Positions 5,685 through 43,805 of a stretch of 64,000 nucleotides of DNA are shown here, piece by piece; positions within the stretch are counted from its first letter, which is position 1; every line of letters begins with the position of its first letter. Origin of the DNA: Streptomyces sp. NBC_01276 (lineage in GTDB: Bacteria > Actinomycetota > Actinomycetes > Streptomycetales > Streptomycetaceae); assembly GCF_041435355.1 (NCBI RefSeq), contig NZ_CP108443.1:372001-436000 (forward strand), read 5' to 3'. A model generated the notes under the pieces. That model had not been told where the DNA came from. It did no database searches and saw only the letters and a list, made by a program, of their open reading frames with translations. The position numbers and the translations under genes were made by a program.

Positions 5685-6108
5685 CCGAACTCCCCTTCCA
5701 CCAGCAGGAATCCAGCCTCCGGCCTTGCCCGCCCCGACACGTCCCCCGCCGGACGTATCCGTCTCCCCCACCCGGGGGAGACTGCGGGTAGCAACTGAGT
5801 ACCGAAGGACGACCACGACGAGTCCTCTCGCACAGTGCGGTGAGCGAGCCCTACGAGGAGTGCAACATCGCCACGTGAAGGGACTGAGCGCACAACTCGC
5901 CCTCGAAAGCTCTCGGCCACTTCGCCCGTAACCATCAGTTACGGGACAGCTCTTACTCGTCGGCTGTCACTCAGTGCGGTGGCACCCCAAAAATTGAGCC
6001 AGAACCCGAAGTGGTGAACATCTGCTGTCGGTTCTCGGGTCTGGCACACATTCCGTGAGGGCGATCACCGGGGTTCTGCCTCGGTGACGTCCTGTCATCT
6101 GGGATCGT

Positions 6109-8500: not shown

Positions 8501-8860
8501 GAGCGCCTCCCAGCCGACCGGCCGCCGAGGGTCCGCTGCCGCAGGTAGTGACATTCCAACCGTTCGGTCATGTGATGAGCCACGGCTACGGAGACATCGC
8601 GCCGAGCGTAGCCGCGTCCGAAACGTAGGCGGAAGCCCTCATCTCCAGATCCGTCGATCGCGCCGATGAAGGTCCGCAGTGTCATGCCTCTGTGGTTCGT
8701 TCCGGCATGGTCGAGGCAAGGCCACGCCTGCTGCCGACCGAGTCGTGGTCCACTGTTTCTCTCGTCTCAGCAGGCCATTGGCGCTGGCGGCCGGCGAACG
8801 TCGATATGTCTCCTCGGCGCCGACCAGGGCGACGGGGCCGCCGCCCTTCCGCCGAGCCGG
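8501..8860. other. 360 bp without a recognisable gene
   Basis: A minus-strand frame at about 8520-8685 (MTLRTFIGAIDGSGDEGF, VSVAVAHHMTERLECHYL) has some coding character, but I cannot match it to a family and it has no ribosome-binding site. I see nothing else. Confidence 0.35.
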
Positions 8861-39757: not shown

Positions 39758-39920
39758 CGCGTCTCCACCCCCTGCCTGAAATCGAACAGCCAGAAGTGTC
39801 GGCGTACACGTGAACGTCCCCACCCGCGTACGGATGAAAAGGGACAGTTGCTGATGCGTTGAGACCTGCTGCTCGGCACTCTGCTGCTTGGTCGGTGAGA
39901 GGCGGCAGGAGGCGGTCGAG

Positions 39921-41339
39921 GTGGTTCTGGATCCGCATCGTTGGTTGGAATTGCGGCGCTTCCGGAGTCTGTTGGAGTCCGGGGCGATCAGCCTGTCAGA
40001 GGTGGCCCGGGAGACCGGGCTGGACCGGAAGACGGTCCGCAAGTATCTGTCGGCACTGGGGCCGGCGACCCCGCCACGGCGGTCGCCGAGCGGGCGGTCG
40101 AAGGCGAGGGTGATCGACGAGTTCGCTCCGCTGGTCGACTCGATGTTGCGGGCGGAGATTCTGATGAAGGCTGCGGTGATCCACGGGCGGCTGGTGGCGG
40201 AGTACGGGTTCACCGGCAACTATCAGCGGACCAAGCTCTACGTTCAGGAAGCCCGGCCTCGGATCGCCCAGGAGCTCGGCATCACGCCGAAGGAACTTGC
40301 CGGGATGCACCGCCGGTTCGAGGTGATCCCGGGCGCCCAGGCCCAAGTCGACTGGGGCGACGAGGGCAAGATCCTCGCCCACATGGGCATCCGGAAGGTC
40401 TACTCCTTCCACATGACGCTGTCGTACTCGCGCGACCCGTTCCGCTGCTTTACCACCAGCCAGGACCTGCAGACCTTCTTCGACTGCCACCGCCGGGCCT
40501 TCGCCCATTTCGGCGGGGTGCCGATGACGATCGTCTACGACCGCACGAAGACGGTCGTGCGCCGACACGTCGCACCGGGTGAGGCCGTCCCGCTGCATCC
40601 GGAAGCGGTCGGGTTCGCCGGCCATTACGACTTCGACATCGACGTCCTGGCCGCCTACCGGCCCACCGGCAAGGGACGCGTCGAACGGCAAGTCCTCATC
40701 GTCCGCGATCATGTCTTGTCCGGCCGGTCCTTCTCCTCCGTCGAGGAGATGGACGCTGCCTTCGCCGCATGGGTGCCGCAGCGGCGGGCTCAGGCCCACA
40801 GGACCCACCAACAGATCATCGGAGAGCGGGCGGCCCGCGATCACGTGGCTCTCAAGCCGCTGCCTTCGACTCCGTATCTGGTGGCCGAACGGCACCTGCG
40901 GCCGGTCGGCAAGGACTGCCTGGTCGCTTTCGGCGGCAACCTCTACTCGGTGCCTGCCCGCAGGGTCCGACCGCGTCAGCTGGTGGAGATCCGGGCCACG
41001 AAATCGCAGGTCATGCTGCACTCCACCGTCGCTGACTCGACTGGCGAGACGCTGCTGGCCACCCACCCGCGGGCGGTCGGCCGCGGGGTCTGCGTCGTCG
41101 ACGAGGCCCACTGGGACGGTCTGCCCACCGGCAAGGGACGCCGCACCACCACCGGCGATGTCCTGCCCCGGCCCCGCCAGGAGCGTCCACGGGGCGAGGA
41201 GGCCGGACCCCTGCAGGCCCTGCTGAACCGGGCCGCAGCCACCCGCATCGAGGTCGGCCGCAGGCCGCTGTCGGTCTACGACGAGCTGACCGGCACCCGT
41301 CCCTTCACCACCCGTCCGAGCACGAGGGAAACGTCTTGA
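39921..41339 (+). CDS. istA: IS21-family transposase
   Basis: This 472-residue DDE transposase cuts and joins the IS ends. The GTG at 39921 has AGGAGG 8 bases upstream and is preferred over the in-frame TTG at 39888. It has a helix-turn-helix ISLSEVARETGLDRKTVRKY (about 18-37). The catalytic acids lie in AQAQVDWGDEG (Asp), MTIVYDRTKTVV (Asp) and GKGRVERQVLI (Glu). A beta-barrel C-terminal part (CLVAFGGNLYSVPARRVRPR) follows. Its stop overlaps the istB start by four bases, as usual in IS21. Confidence 0.92.
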   Translation: MVLDPHRWLELRRFRSLLESGAISLSEVARETGLDRKTVRKYLSALGPATPPRRSPSGRSKARVIDEFAPLVDSMLRAEILMKAAVIHGRLVAEYGFTGNYQRTKLYVQEARPRIAQELGITPKELAGMHRRFEVIPGAQAQVDWGDEGKILAHMGIRKVYSFHMTLSYSRDPFRCFTTSQDLQTFFDCHRRAFAHFGGVPMTIVYDRTKTVVRRHVAPGEAVPLHPEAVGFAGHYDFDIDVLAAYRPTGKGRVERQVLIVRDHVLSGRSFSSVEEMDAAFAAWVPQRRAQAHRTHQQIIGERAARDHVALKPLPSTPYLVAERHLRPVGKDCLVAFGGNLYSVPARRVRPRQLVEIRATKSQVMLHSTVADSTGETLLATHPRAVGRGVCVVDEAHWDGLPTGKGRRTTTGDVLPRPRQERPRGEEAGPLQALLNRAAATRIEVGRRPLSVYDELTGTRPFTTRPSTRETS

Positions 41340-42106
41340 GCGAGCTGGTCTCCACCCGCATCCGCAACACGGCCGGCAAGCTCGGCCTGCCCCACCTGGC
41401 CGAAACGATCAACGAGTACACCCGCCGGGCCGACGAGGGGAAGATGGGCTACCTCGACTTCCTCGACCTGGTTTTGTCCGAGGAACTGGCCGTCCGCGAC
41501 GACCGCCGCTTCCGTCAGGGCCTGCGGCTCTCGAAGCTGCCACACCACAAGACGCTCGACGAGTACGACTTCTCCTTCCAGCCCGACCTCGACCCGCGCA
41601 AGGTCAAGGACCTCGCCACCCTCTCGTTCGTCGACGGCAAAGCGAACGCCGCCCTGCTCGGGCCGCCCGGGGTCGGCAATACACACATCGCCGTCGCTCT
41701 CACGGTCGCAGCCTGCCGGGCCGGCTACTCGATCTACTTCACCAGCCTCGACGACATGGTCCGCAATCTCAAAACCGCCGAGGCCGCCGGACGGCTGACG
41801 AACAAGCTCGGCACCTACCTGCGGCCCAGCGTTCTCGTCGTCGACGAAGTCGGCTACCAGCCCCTTGAACGAGCCGAGGCAAACCTGGTCTTCCAGGTCA
41901 TCTCCAAGCGCTACGAGAAGGGCTCCATCATCCTGACCTCGAACAAGACCTTCAGCGAATGGGGCCAGGTCTTCGGCGACGAGGTCCTCGCCACCGCCAT
42001 CCTCGACCGGCTCCTCCACCACTGCGAAGTGATCTCCATCAACGGCCCCAGCTACCGGCTCAAGAACCGCCTCAAGGCCATCGAGCGGGACAACGACGTG
42101 GCCTGA
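41336..42106 (+). CDS. istB: IS21-family helper ATPase with a damaged Walker A motif
   Basis: The 256-residue AAA+ helper normally selects target DNA and activates IstA in an ATP-dependent way. Starting at the TTG at 41336 it has the N-terminal IstB helices (LGLPHLAETINEY, DFLDLVLSEELAVRDDRRF). The P-loop reads LLGPPGVGNTHIAVAL, the Walker B VLVVDEVGYQPL, and sensor 1 IILTSNKTFSEW. The invariant P-loop lysine (GKTH) is Asn here (AAT), which should abolish ATP binding. Otherwise it is intact and full length. Confidence 0.92.
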   Translation: MSELVSTRIRNTAGKLGLPHLAETINEYTRRADEGKMGYLDFLDLVLSEELAVRDDRRFRQGLRLSKLPHHKTLDEYDFSFQPDLDPRKVKDLATLSFVDGKANAALLGPPGVGNTHIAVALTVAACRAGYSIYFTSLDDMVRNLKTAEAAGRLTNKLGTYLRPSVLVVDEVGYQPLERAEANLVFQVISKRYEKGSIILTSNKTFSEWGQVFGDEVLATAILDRLLHHCEVISINGPSYRLKNRLKAIERDNDVA

Positions 42107-42377
42107 CGACCCACGTCGATTCCTGCGGCCGAGCACCTGATCAGTCGTTGCCCACCCGCTGAAAGATCTCGGAGAACTCGCCGTTATCGATCAGCCCGGC
42201 GATGACGGCAGTCATGCTGTCGATGCCGGGATCCCTGACGATCAGGCCGTCCGAGTCCCAGAAGTACCGGCCCCCGAGGGCCTCGTCGGTCCCTGCCCAG
42301 AGTTTCATCAGACGCTCGACTTCCGCGACGCTGAAGACGGTCGCGGTTCAACGAGATCCATCCTTTGTGGACGATCG

Positions 42378-42414
42378 CGCAATTCCCCACCCCGGCAGTC
42401 ACGTAATTCCCCAG
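42378..42414 (-). repeat. Left-end repeated motifs of the cargo element
   Basis: Two minus-strand copies of GTGGGGAATTNCGyGA occupy 42378-42390 and 42402-42414. They are the likely transposase-binding sites of the left end. Confidence 0.65.
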
Positions 42415-42444
42415 GTCCCCTCACAAGTCCGCCTGCGGGCTTGT

Positions 42445-42472
42445 ACCGGTTCCCCCAAGCGGGGGAACCGGT
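42445..42472. repeat. Perfect 12-bp-stem hairpin in the cargo leader
   Basis: ACCGGTTCCCCC (42445-42456) and GGGGGAACCGGT (42461-42472) are exact inverted copies around the loop AAGC, lying about 90 bp before the cargo start. It could be an operator, a transcription-limiting hairpin that insulates the cargo, or a resolution site. Confidence 0.55.
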
Positions 42473-42561
42473 TCGTACCCGCGGGCGACGCCTGCTCCTC
42501 ACAGCGGGTGCGATCTTCGAGATGACAAGAACCGGAGTCACCGCGTGACCTGAGGAGCACT

Positions 42562-43203
42562 ATGACCGCCGTCGACACACCTCGGACCGGATGGCGTGGC
42601 ACATGGCGGGCCGCTCACGCGCCCGTCGAAGGAGTCCCCCGCTGGGCCCGTACCGTCGCCCACGCCATCCCGTTCATCGTCCTGCCGTCCGGCATCTGGC
42701 GGATCGCGACCGTCGTATTCGACGTCGCCGGCGACGGCCGACACCACGGCGCTGCCGACACCACAGTGGGCCTTCCCAACCCGGTGTACGTGACCTTCCT
42801 GTCGCTCCTCTCTGAGCTCCTCGCGTTCGCCGCCGTGGGTCTCATCGCCGCGTGGGGCGAGGTGTTCCCCGGCTGGATACCGGTACTGCGCGGACGCCGA
42901 GTGCCGCTCCTGGCCGCCGTGATCCCCGCCGCGCTCGGCGCCACCATCCTCACGGCCCTGTGGACCACCCTCGCCGTCCAGATCGGTTCCGGGGTCACGC
43001 TCCAGGGAAACCCGCTTCCGGCTGACTTCCCCACCGTCACGCTGCACGGCTGGCGCCTCGGCTTCTTCCTCGCCACCTACGCCCCGCTCCCGCTCTGGGG
43101 ACCGCTCCTCGCCCTCCTCACCATCGCCTACTGGCGGCGCCGCACTCCAGGCCTGCGCACTCCCACAGCGTTGGCCGGGTCCTGCCCGTCCCCGCCCAGA
43201 TGA
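42562..43203 (+). CDS. Four-segment membrane protein, cargo of the non-autonomous element
   Basis: The 213-residue product (GAGGAG 6 bases before the ATG) has hydrophobic segments VAHAIPFIVLPSGIWRIATV, LSLLSELLAFAAVGLIAAW, VPLLAAVIPAALGATILTAL and GFFLATYAPLPLWGPLLALL. Conserved-looking polar residues lie between them. This resembles a family of small actinomycete integral membrane proteins of unknown function. It is the only gene in the element, has its own terminator (43180-43222), and points toward the right end. Confidence 0.75.
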   Translation: MTAVDTPRTGWRGTWRAAHAPVEGVPRWARTVAHAIPFIVLPSGIWRIATVVFDVAGDGRHHGAADTTVGLPNPVYVTFLSLLSELLAFAAVGLIAAWGEVFPGWIPVLRGRRVPLLAAVIPAALGATILTALWTTLAVQIGSGVTLQGNPLPADFPTVTLHGWRLGFFLATYAPLPLWGPLLALLTIAYWRRRTPGLRTPTALAGSCPSPPR

Positions 43204-43222
43204 CAGGCGGGGACGGGCAGGA
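43180..43222 (+). terminator. Strong terminator of the cargo gene
   Basis: A 17-bp perfect stem (beginning TCCTGCCCGTCCCCG at 43180-43196 and 43206-43222) brackets a 9-base loop that contains the cargo stop codon. It lies inside the element and should isolate the cargo from the host gene. Confidence 0.75.
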
Positions 43223-43262
43223 TCCACGCGGCCTGAGTAGCCCTCCGCCACCGGCATCCCCA

Positions 43263-43333
43263 TGGGGAATGGTGACCGTGCGGGTGGGGAATTTCGTGGT
43301 GCTCAAGCAGCTGGGAGTGGGGAATTGCGTGAC
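43263..43333 (+). repeat. Right-end repeated motifs of the cargo element
   Basis: TGGGGAAT motifs start at 43263, 43285 and 43318. The last two extend to the GTGGGGAATTNCGTG form seen, inverted, at the left end. They are likely the transposase-binding sites of the right end. Confidence 0.65.
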
Positions 43334-43496
43334 CTCTGACATCCTTCAGTGTCACGAAGACATCGACGTTACAGACCTCTTCCAAGTCCTCGCCGTCGCT
43401 GGGCAGGAACGACGCCTGGAAGTCCGCCAAGCGGACCCGATACCAGGGCTCGTCCCACCCTCGCTCGATCGGTTCAGACGATGTGCTGTGGCTCAT

Positions 43497-43805
43497 CGCG
43501 CGAGTGTCCCTGGTCGGGGCATCGATCTCAACCGAGATCTTCTGCCGTGCTGCCGCTGCCTGCGGTCAGAGCTGGGGACGTTCGTCCGTACGTAACTGGG
43601 GAGAAAAGTCCGTACGCCGACAAGAAGGCTACACCGGCATCTCAGGACCCCGACTTGACCGCTTGGCACCGTGAGGTGTCTACCGCCTCGCCAGCACCCG
43701 AGCCCGCGCCGAGGAGTCGGTCAAGGCCGGCTGATCTTGTCGTAACTGCCTGCTGGTCCCGAGTTCCGGACGAGAATTGGAGTCCAGGCGGACTGATGAT
43801 GGGGG
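43497..43805. other. Upstream region of the interrupted gene and the LRR gene
   Basis: About 310 bp without a gene. GTCCGTACG occurs twice (about 43588 and 43612), possibly an operator for the leftward operon. No clear promoter for the rightward LRR gene is visible. Confidence 0.35.

Follow-up and report, generated by a model that had tools for sequence, protein, structure and literature searches.

The window, the 64-kb stretch of Streptomyces DNA analysed here, holds a 976-bp element (42366..43341) lying inside an IS21 insertion sequence of a different lineage. The enclosing IS21 (39797..43622, plus strand) is flanked by the target duplication AGAAG, at 39792-39796 and 43623-43627. It carries istA (39888..41339, plus strand), with rve and Mu-transpos_C_2 domains, istB (41336..42106, plus strand), with an IstB_IS21 domain, and a passenger gene on the minus strand. 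The inner element interrupts this passenger gene, leaving a C-terminal half at 42141..42365 and an N-terminal half at 43342..43496, both recognised from homologues.

The termini of the inner element, TGTGGACGATCGCGCAATTCCCCACC and TGTCAGAGGTCACGCAATTCCCCACT, read TGT...ACA and match at 19 of 26 positions when counted by eye, as originally predicted. Repeats with the core AATTCCCCA follow at each end, two on the left and three on the right. On the left, the terminal repeat L1 (42366..42389, plus strand), placed by the motif and an end profile, is followed by L2 (GTCACGTAATTCCCCA; 42398..42413, plus strand) 24 bp away. On the right, all on the minus strand, are the terminal repeat R1 (43318..43341), placed in the same way, R2 (43285..43300), 33 bp from R1, and a weaker R3 (43263..43278), identified by the motif and about 22 bp from R2. 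The motif CRYAATTCCCCA, with up to one mismatch, occurs five times in the 64-kb window, every time inside the two ends, where shuffled sequences predict 0.46 occurrences. Against a 24-bp end profile the two ends score 37.9 and 37.6 bits, although both were among the 34 ends that trained the profile and were later scored with it. In the window just one further match scores at least 15 bits, the inner left repeat (42390, 19.6 bits), and nothing reached 20 bits in random sequence of 71% GC (20 Mb, one strand) or in 97,305 bases of control loci. The end motif of this element occurs far above chance.

TCCTT is read on both sides of the element, at 42361..42365 and 43342..43346. The original prediction allowed either this or CATCCTT; as the family terminates in TGT/ACA, the 7-bp boundary was ruled out and the duplication is the 5-bp TCCTT. 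Searching with IstA and IstB of both lineages found no match inside 42366-43341 (tblastn, E <= 1e-4). The ends, the duplication and this result confirm the prediction of a 976-bp transposase-less element with IS21-like ends, two to three motif copies in each.

The single gene inside the element (42562..43203, plus strand) encodes a 213-residue protein. It was predicted to be a membrane protein with four segments, and its structural model has four long helical regions at medium confidence (mean pLDDT 78.5). It matched no Pfam, NCBIfam or PADLOC family, and comparison of the model with PDB folds gave 0 matches at E <= 0.001, so no function was assigned from the fold. Its 505 homologues (E <= 0.001), some of them named DUF3995, belong to a family that is widespread across actinobacterial genomes. 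One of them (P0121), from Streptomyces sp. NPDC096136, is 98% identical and of equal length. Close homologues (E <= 1e-70) were found in three of 296 genomes of relatives, its own included, and the other two are 62-64% identical. No second copy of the exact 976-bp element was found, and it is known from one place only. In 29 Streptomyces loci with cargo homologues (L010-L038, about 1.5 kb on each side) there were no ends of at least 14 bits, which is consistent with, but not proof of, capture of the cargo from a common gene family.

A strong hairpin stands on each side of the cargo gene. One, at 42425..42492 between the left end and the gene (-51 kcal/mol, z -6.95), was absent from the original prediction, as was the enclosing IS21. 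The other is the gene's own terminator-like stem (43177..43225, plus strand, from the RNA fold), which overlaps the 3' end of the gene; the perfect stem that had been described is borne out by 20 consecutive RNA pairs (-49.4 kcal/mol over a 59-nt stretch, z -7.4). Genome G361, where there is no end within two mismatches of the end pattern, contains a 91% match to a stretch overlapping the first hairpin (42417-42471, element positions 52-106).

The interrupted gene had been taken for a host gene, but it is the passenger of the enclosing IS21. Two compact relatives of that IS21 are 2362 and 2363 bp long; the annotated one has only istA and istB, and the record of the other is without annotation. 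The extra DNA of the window copy relative to these is the passenger gene, split by the inner element. Joined, its halves give 375 nt, the 125 codons that had been predicted, but the frame has one additional in-frame stop, in the C-terminal half. Homologues are numerous (360 matches at E <= 0.001), and the best 120 of the 360 are mostly 124 residues long and up to 91% identical. At least seven plasmids carry the gene at full length with 84.7-85.5% identity, among the best 20 of 25 matching records. Given these intact homologues, the two halves belong together and the empty site is real. We saw neither of the findings that the original prediction had set against itself, ends of this type as host sequence in uninterrupted loci or halves that never occur together. 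The Walker-A motif of the outer IstB reads GVGNT, where its relative in L040 has GVGKT; this change and the in-frame stop in the passenger gene suggest that the outer IS21 has probably decayed.

At L040 (5924-9073) a cargo element with inner-type ends and a target duplication encloses an outer-type IS21. One outer-type end (8633-8643) lies where the cargo gene, also present in L039, is interrupted; the other outer-type end was absent by exact match. Because the split carries an outer-type end, the nesting at L040 is apparently the reverse of that in the window, with the outer-type IS21 inside the cargo element.

Ends of the inner type form a family. The end pattern, allowing two mismatches, was found in 92 of 392 Streptomyces genomes, with 0 for the reversed-pattern control in each row listed, and in a class-wide sample it was found in 12 of 296 genomes and eight of 114 genera. 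A strict double-repeat pattern, present at five loci in genome contigs and at 0 in viral contigs, was judged over-strict for a census. The loci examined were 20 regions from the first DNA search, 106 regions around pattern hits and five plasmid regions. Together with the window these 131 loci gave 63 convergent end pairs, each tested for an exact flanking duplication of 5-9 bp. Exact duplications, 5-7 bp long, flanked 28 of the 63 pairs. By the same criterion, control comparisons gave 3 of 2520 when both flanks were shifted and 7 of 2142 when only one was. Among the pairs listed, 18 of 46 had no exact duplication of at least 5 bp. Two pairs were then removed, L063 (5045-8415), where the alignment to L048 stops at 6055 with an unrelated transposase beyond, and L080, an identical copy of L079 on the other arm of the same genome. 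This left 26 elements. L079 and L080 are 313 bp long and lie near both ends of one G300 contig in opposite orientation, as expected for the terminal inverted repeats of a linear chromosome.

Ten of the 26 elements hold istA-istB (L043, L044, L046, L050, L059, L060, L098, L099, L122 and L167), some of these genes being incomplete, for example istB of L099. Ten, counting the window element, are cargo-only (L041, L048, L062, L074, L109, L117, L156, L161 and L163), four are 313-336 bp long (L079, L144, L148 and L166), one has an istB fragment (L138), and one is the cargo element holding an outer-type IS21 (L040). The original prediction had proposed looking for a complete IS21 with the same ends, and for both ends together in other Streptomyces with whatever lies between them; L059, L060, L043, L044, L050, L098 and others answer the first, and the further cargo-only elements with exact duplications answer the second. 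L043 and L044, full copies in one genome, have differing duplications, and L181 is a further full IS21 with the same ends and a duplication. In a non-Streptomyces genome from another actinobacterial family, a full IS21 of 2.66 kb that shares these ends is present in 11 copies (L185-L195), nine of them with a duplication of at least 5 bp; in several, istA matches only as broken pieces, as if frameshifted. Short forms of 312-336 bp with the same ends exist in the lineage. One candidate, L068, which has a hydrolase gene and a duplication matching at four of five positions, was left uncounted; the same hydrolase stands outside the 336-bp element in L148.

The genes between these ends are diverse, and the ten cargo-only elements represent at least eight cargo types, a count that leaves out the large genes of L041. 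Pfam matches include SMI1_KNR4 (L163), DUF6193 (L161), a phosphotransferase-family gene (APH, PF01636; L156, 7046-8257) and TetR_N with DUF4345 (L074). The cargo of L117 matches Imm10 slightly below the cut-off (28.0 against 28.6). That of L062 is annotated as DUF1877 in its record, without a Pfam match, and L109 carries a homologue. L048 encodes an unnamed protein of about 280 residues, called "hypothetical" in its relative L063 and without a Pfam match there. PADLOC matched 0 of nine cargo and passenger proteins. Full elements can also carry passengers, DUF6882 in L059, a methyltransferase in L122 and an unnamed 177-residue protein in L043, in each case between istB and the left end; L050 and L098 have zero extra genes by our filter. 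At other left ends, where a codon-bias filter of ours picked the first gene and a partner end was found for some only, there are an acetyltransferase (L056), a nucleotidyltransferase (L183), a luciferase-like enzyme (L094), a glyoxalase-like protein (L077) and others. The dN/dS of cargo genes is 0.20-0.53 across 22 aligned stretches, which come from full and cargo-only elements alike. These 22 stretches are free of stops; those of L040, L042 and L146 are each broken in two. In Kitasatospora aureofaciens, matching ends (L061, 1726-6098, and L184) enclose an MFS transporter gene and an istB fragment; a duplication was looked for at this element and none was found.

Several cargo-only elements recur in other genomes. 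L048 is found nearly whole in L054 and L063, L074 in L119, L117 in L149 and L125, and L062 in L158, while L048 recurs in part in L042 and L130, and L109 in L069 and L131. Homology stops within 12 bp of the element ends and the sites are unrelated, although several of these relatives were counted without an established second end or duplication. L039 (738 bp, duplication matching at four of five positions) has an L043-type passenger and, next to the right end, the final codons of istB. This istB tail indicates that L039 descends from a full, passenger-bearing element that lost istAB by deletion.

A cognate IstA (E <= 1e-100) was found in 26 of 392 Streptomyces genomes, 17 of which are among the 92 with an end. 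That most end-bearing genomes are without the cognate helper is consistent with stranded copies. The other nine have no end within two mismatches of the pattern, so the ends vary within the lineage. Seven further IstA regions (L200-L206) were inspected for ends. In L201 and L202 the pair is flanked by a 5-bp duplication, the ends scoring 33.0 and 34.9 bits in L201 and 23 bits in L202; the ends of L200 score just 18 bits with a 4-bp duplication, the pair in L204 is without a duplication, and no end pair was found in L203, L205 or L206. Genome G127 has both forms, the full L167 and the 313-bp L166, with duplications at both. In G145 the cargo element L119 coexists with an IstA (L200), which is not a clear case of a helper because the ends of L200 have diverged. 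A search of the window's own genome for the cognate IstA (E <= 0.001) gave a single match, the outer IstA, which is 32% identical; the window copy is therefore probably stranded now.

Taken together, the element is very probably a transposable element of the non-autonomous type, a kind of mobile insertion cassette whose ends are those of one actinobacterial IS21 lineage. Mobile insertion cassettes have the ends of an insertion sequence, a gene in place of the transposase and a target duplication, and IS231A mobilises MIC231A1 in trans, as described in a section of PMC3913671; the term is also used in part of PMC3129680. Like MIC231A1 and its relatives, as far as those sections describe them, the window element has inverted ends of an identifiable insertion sequence, shared with full IS21 elements elsewhere, the TCCTT duplication, and a gene unrelated to transposition (the 213-residue reading frame with its 505 homologues) where a transposase would be, tblastn having found none. 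Unlike them, it has the multi-repeat ends of IS21 rather than those of IS231 and belongs to a two-protein IstA/IstB system; its lineage has at least eight cargo types; and it is known from sequence alone, whereas MIC231A1 has been mobilised in trans. It shares with IS21 insertion sequences the TG...CA ends with at least two repeats each and a short duplication, 5 bp here as for IS5376. Having no istA-istB pair, it is not itself an IS21 insertion sequence but a derivative with IS21 ends. Nor is it a short non-coding MITE, since it bears a protein gene, although the 312-336-bp forms of the lineage resemble MITEs. Copies of insertion sequences with passenger genes have been named transporter IS (tIS) in a passage of PMC9330008. 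The passenger-bearing full elements L043, L059 and L122 are of that kind, whereas the window element has neither istA nor istB.

As its ends match complete elements in other genomes, the element most likely moves with borrowed enzymes. L1-L2 and R1-R2-R3 are predicted binding sites for the IstA of the lineage. Expressed from a full element sharing the cell, IstA and IstB would bring the two ends together, cleave at TG/CA and integrate the cassette, duplicating 5 bp of target. The cargo occupies the interval where full elements hold istA-istB and, in several, a left-end passenger, and the window copy may have originated by an L039-like loss of istAB from a full element. Among the nearest known systems is IS5376, whose IstA (chains 8b4h and 8q4d) the cognate IstA matches, together with NCBIfam NF033546. 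According to sections of PMC10122671, each end of IS5376 contains a direct repeat in two copies, spaced by about 23 bp, with a terminal CA, insertions are flanked by 5-bp repeats, and integration requires two complete repeats per end. The cassette keeps at least two and should therefore be a substrate. The direct-repeat ends and 5-bp duplications are alike, whereas the window element differs in its R1-R2 spacing of 33 bp, its third right repeat and its lack of a transposase. With the outer IstA as the only match in its own genome, mobilisation in trans is something we infer.

That same shortage of cognate IstA, in the window's genome and in all but 17 of the 92 end-bearing genomes, would suit a dead relic, in which a full IS21 with a passenger inserted, istAB was deleted in place and the cargo-only form never moved. 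L039, with its istB tail, is one family member that such a deletion produced. A relic nevertheless seems rather unlikely, though for the window copy taken singly it may hold. Cargo-only elements of the same layout stand at unrelated sites in different genomes (L048/L054/L063, L074/L119, L117/L149), 312-336-bp forms occur as well, and many independent deletions in place giving one layout are less likely than movement.

It seems highly improbable that the enclosing IS21 provided the transposase that inserted the inner element. Its IstA is the sole match in the genome, both families begin with termini resembling TGTCGGCG and duplicate 5 bp on insertion, and in L040 inner-type ends with a duplication do enclose outer-type IstAB. 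However, we read L040 as nesting, since the outer-type IS splits the cargo gene there and one of its ends lies inside. The outer IstA is just 30-32% identical to the cognate IstA, the outer end repeats read GTCCCCA rather than AATTCCCCA, and the Walker-A motif of the window's outer IstB is altered. Moreover, all ten duplication-flanked full Streptomyces elements carry the cognate IstAB, their IstA being 75-100% identical to that of L059. A chance origin of the ends, or ends that are host sequence around an ordinary local gene, can be given practically no weight. The cargo family is indeed widespread in actinobacteria, without such ends near the 29 homologues examined, but the end scores, the exact duplication, the family of ends and the split gene are strongly against it.

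IS21 elements are usually regarded as plain two-gene insertion sequences, and no IS21-based mobile insertion cassette was found among the matches listed in searches of the open-access literature. The lineage of the window element might be an open gene-cassette platform, whose left-end slot takes many single genes that travel with istAB or, helper-free, in trans. We hold this tentatively, as a proposition a little short of even. The cargo would be in part immunity-like (SMI1/KNR4, Imm10-like) and in part enzyme-like (acetyltransferase, phosphotransferase, methyltransferase). The same ends with many genes, with or without a transposase, would offer actinobacteria a small and easily missed route of gene transfer. 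Annotation based on transposases would overlook the helper-free forms; the end consensus makes them searchable and mobilisation in trans testable.

Pairing of the ends of neighbouring copies may be one way in which cargo is captured, a hint that comes from elements with two left-type ends. By score, L163, L074 and L079 each have two left-type ends and L138 has two right-type ends, all with exact 5-bp duplications. In vitro, IS5376 can work with a pair of left ends or a pair of right ends, according to a passage of PMC10122671. At L071 (7017-7066) two ends stand back to back with 2 bp between them, resembling a junction of abutted ends.
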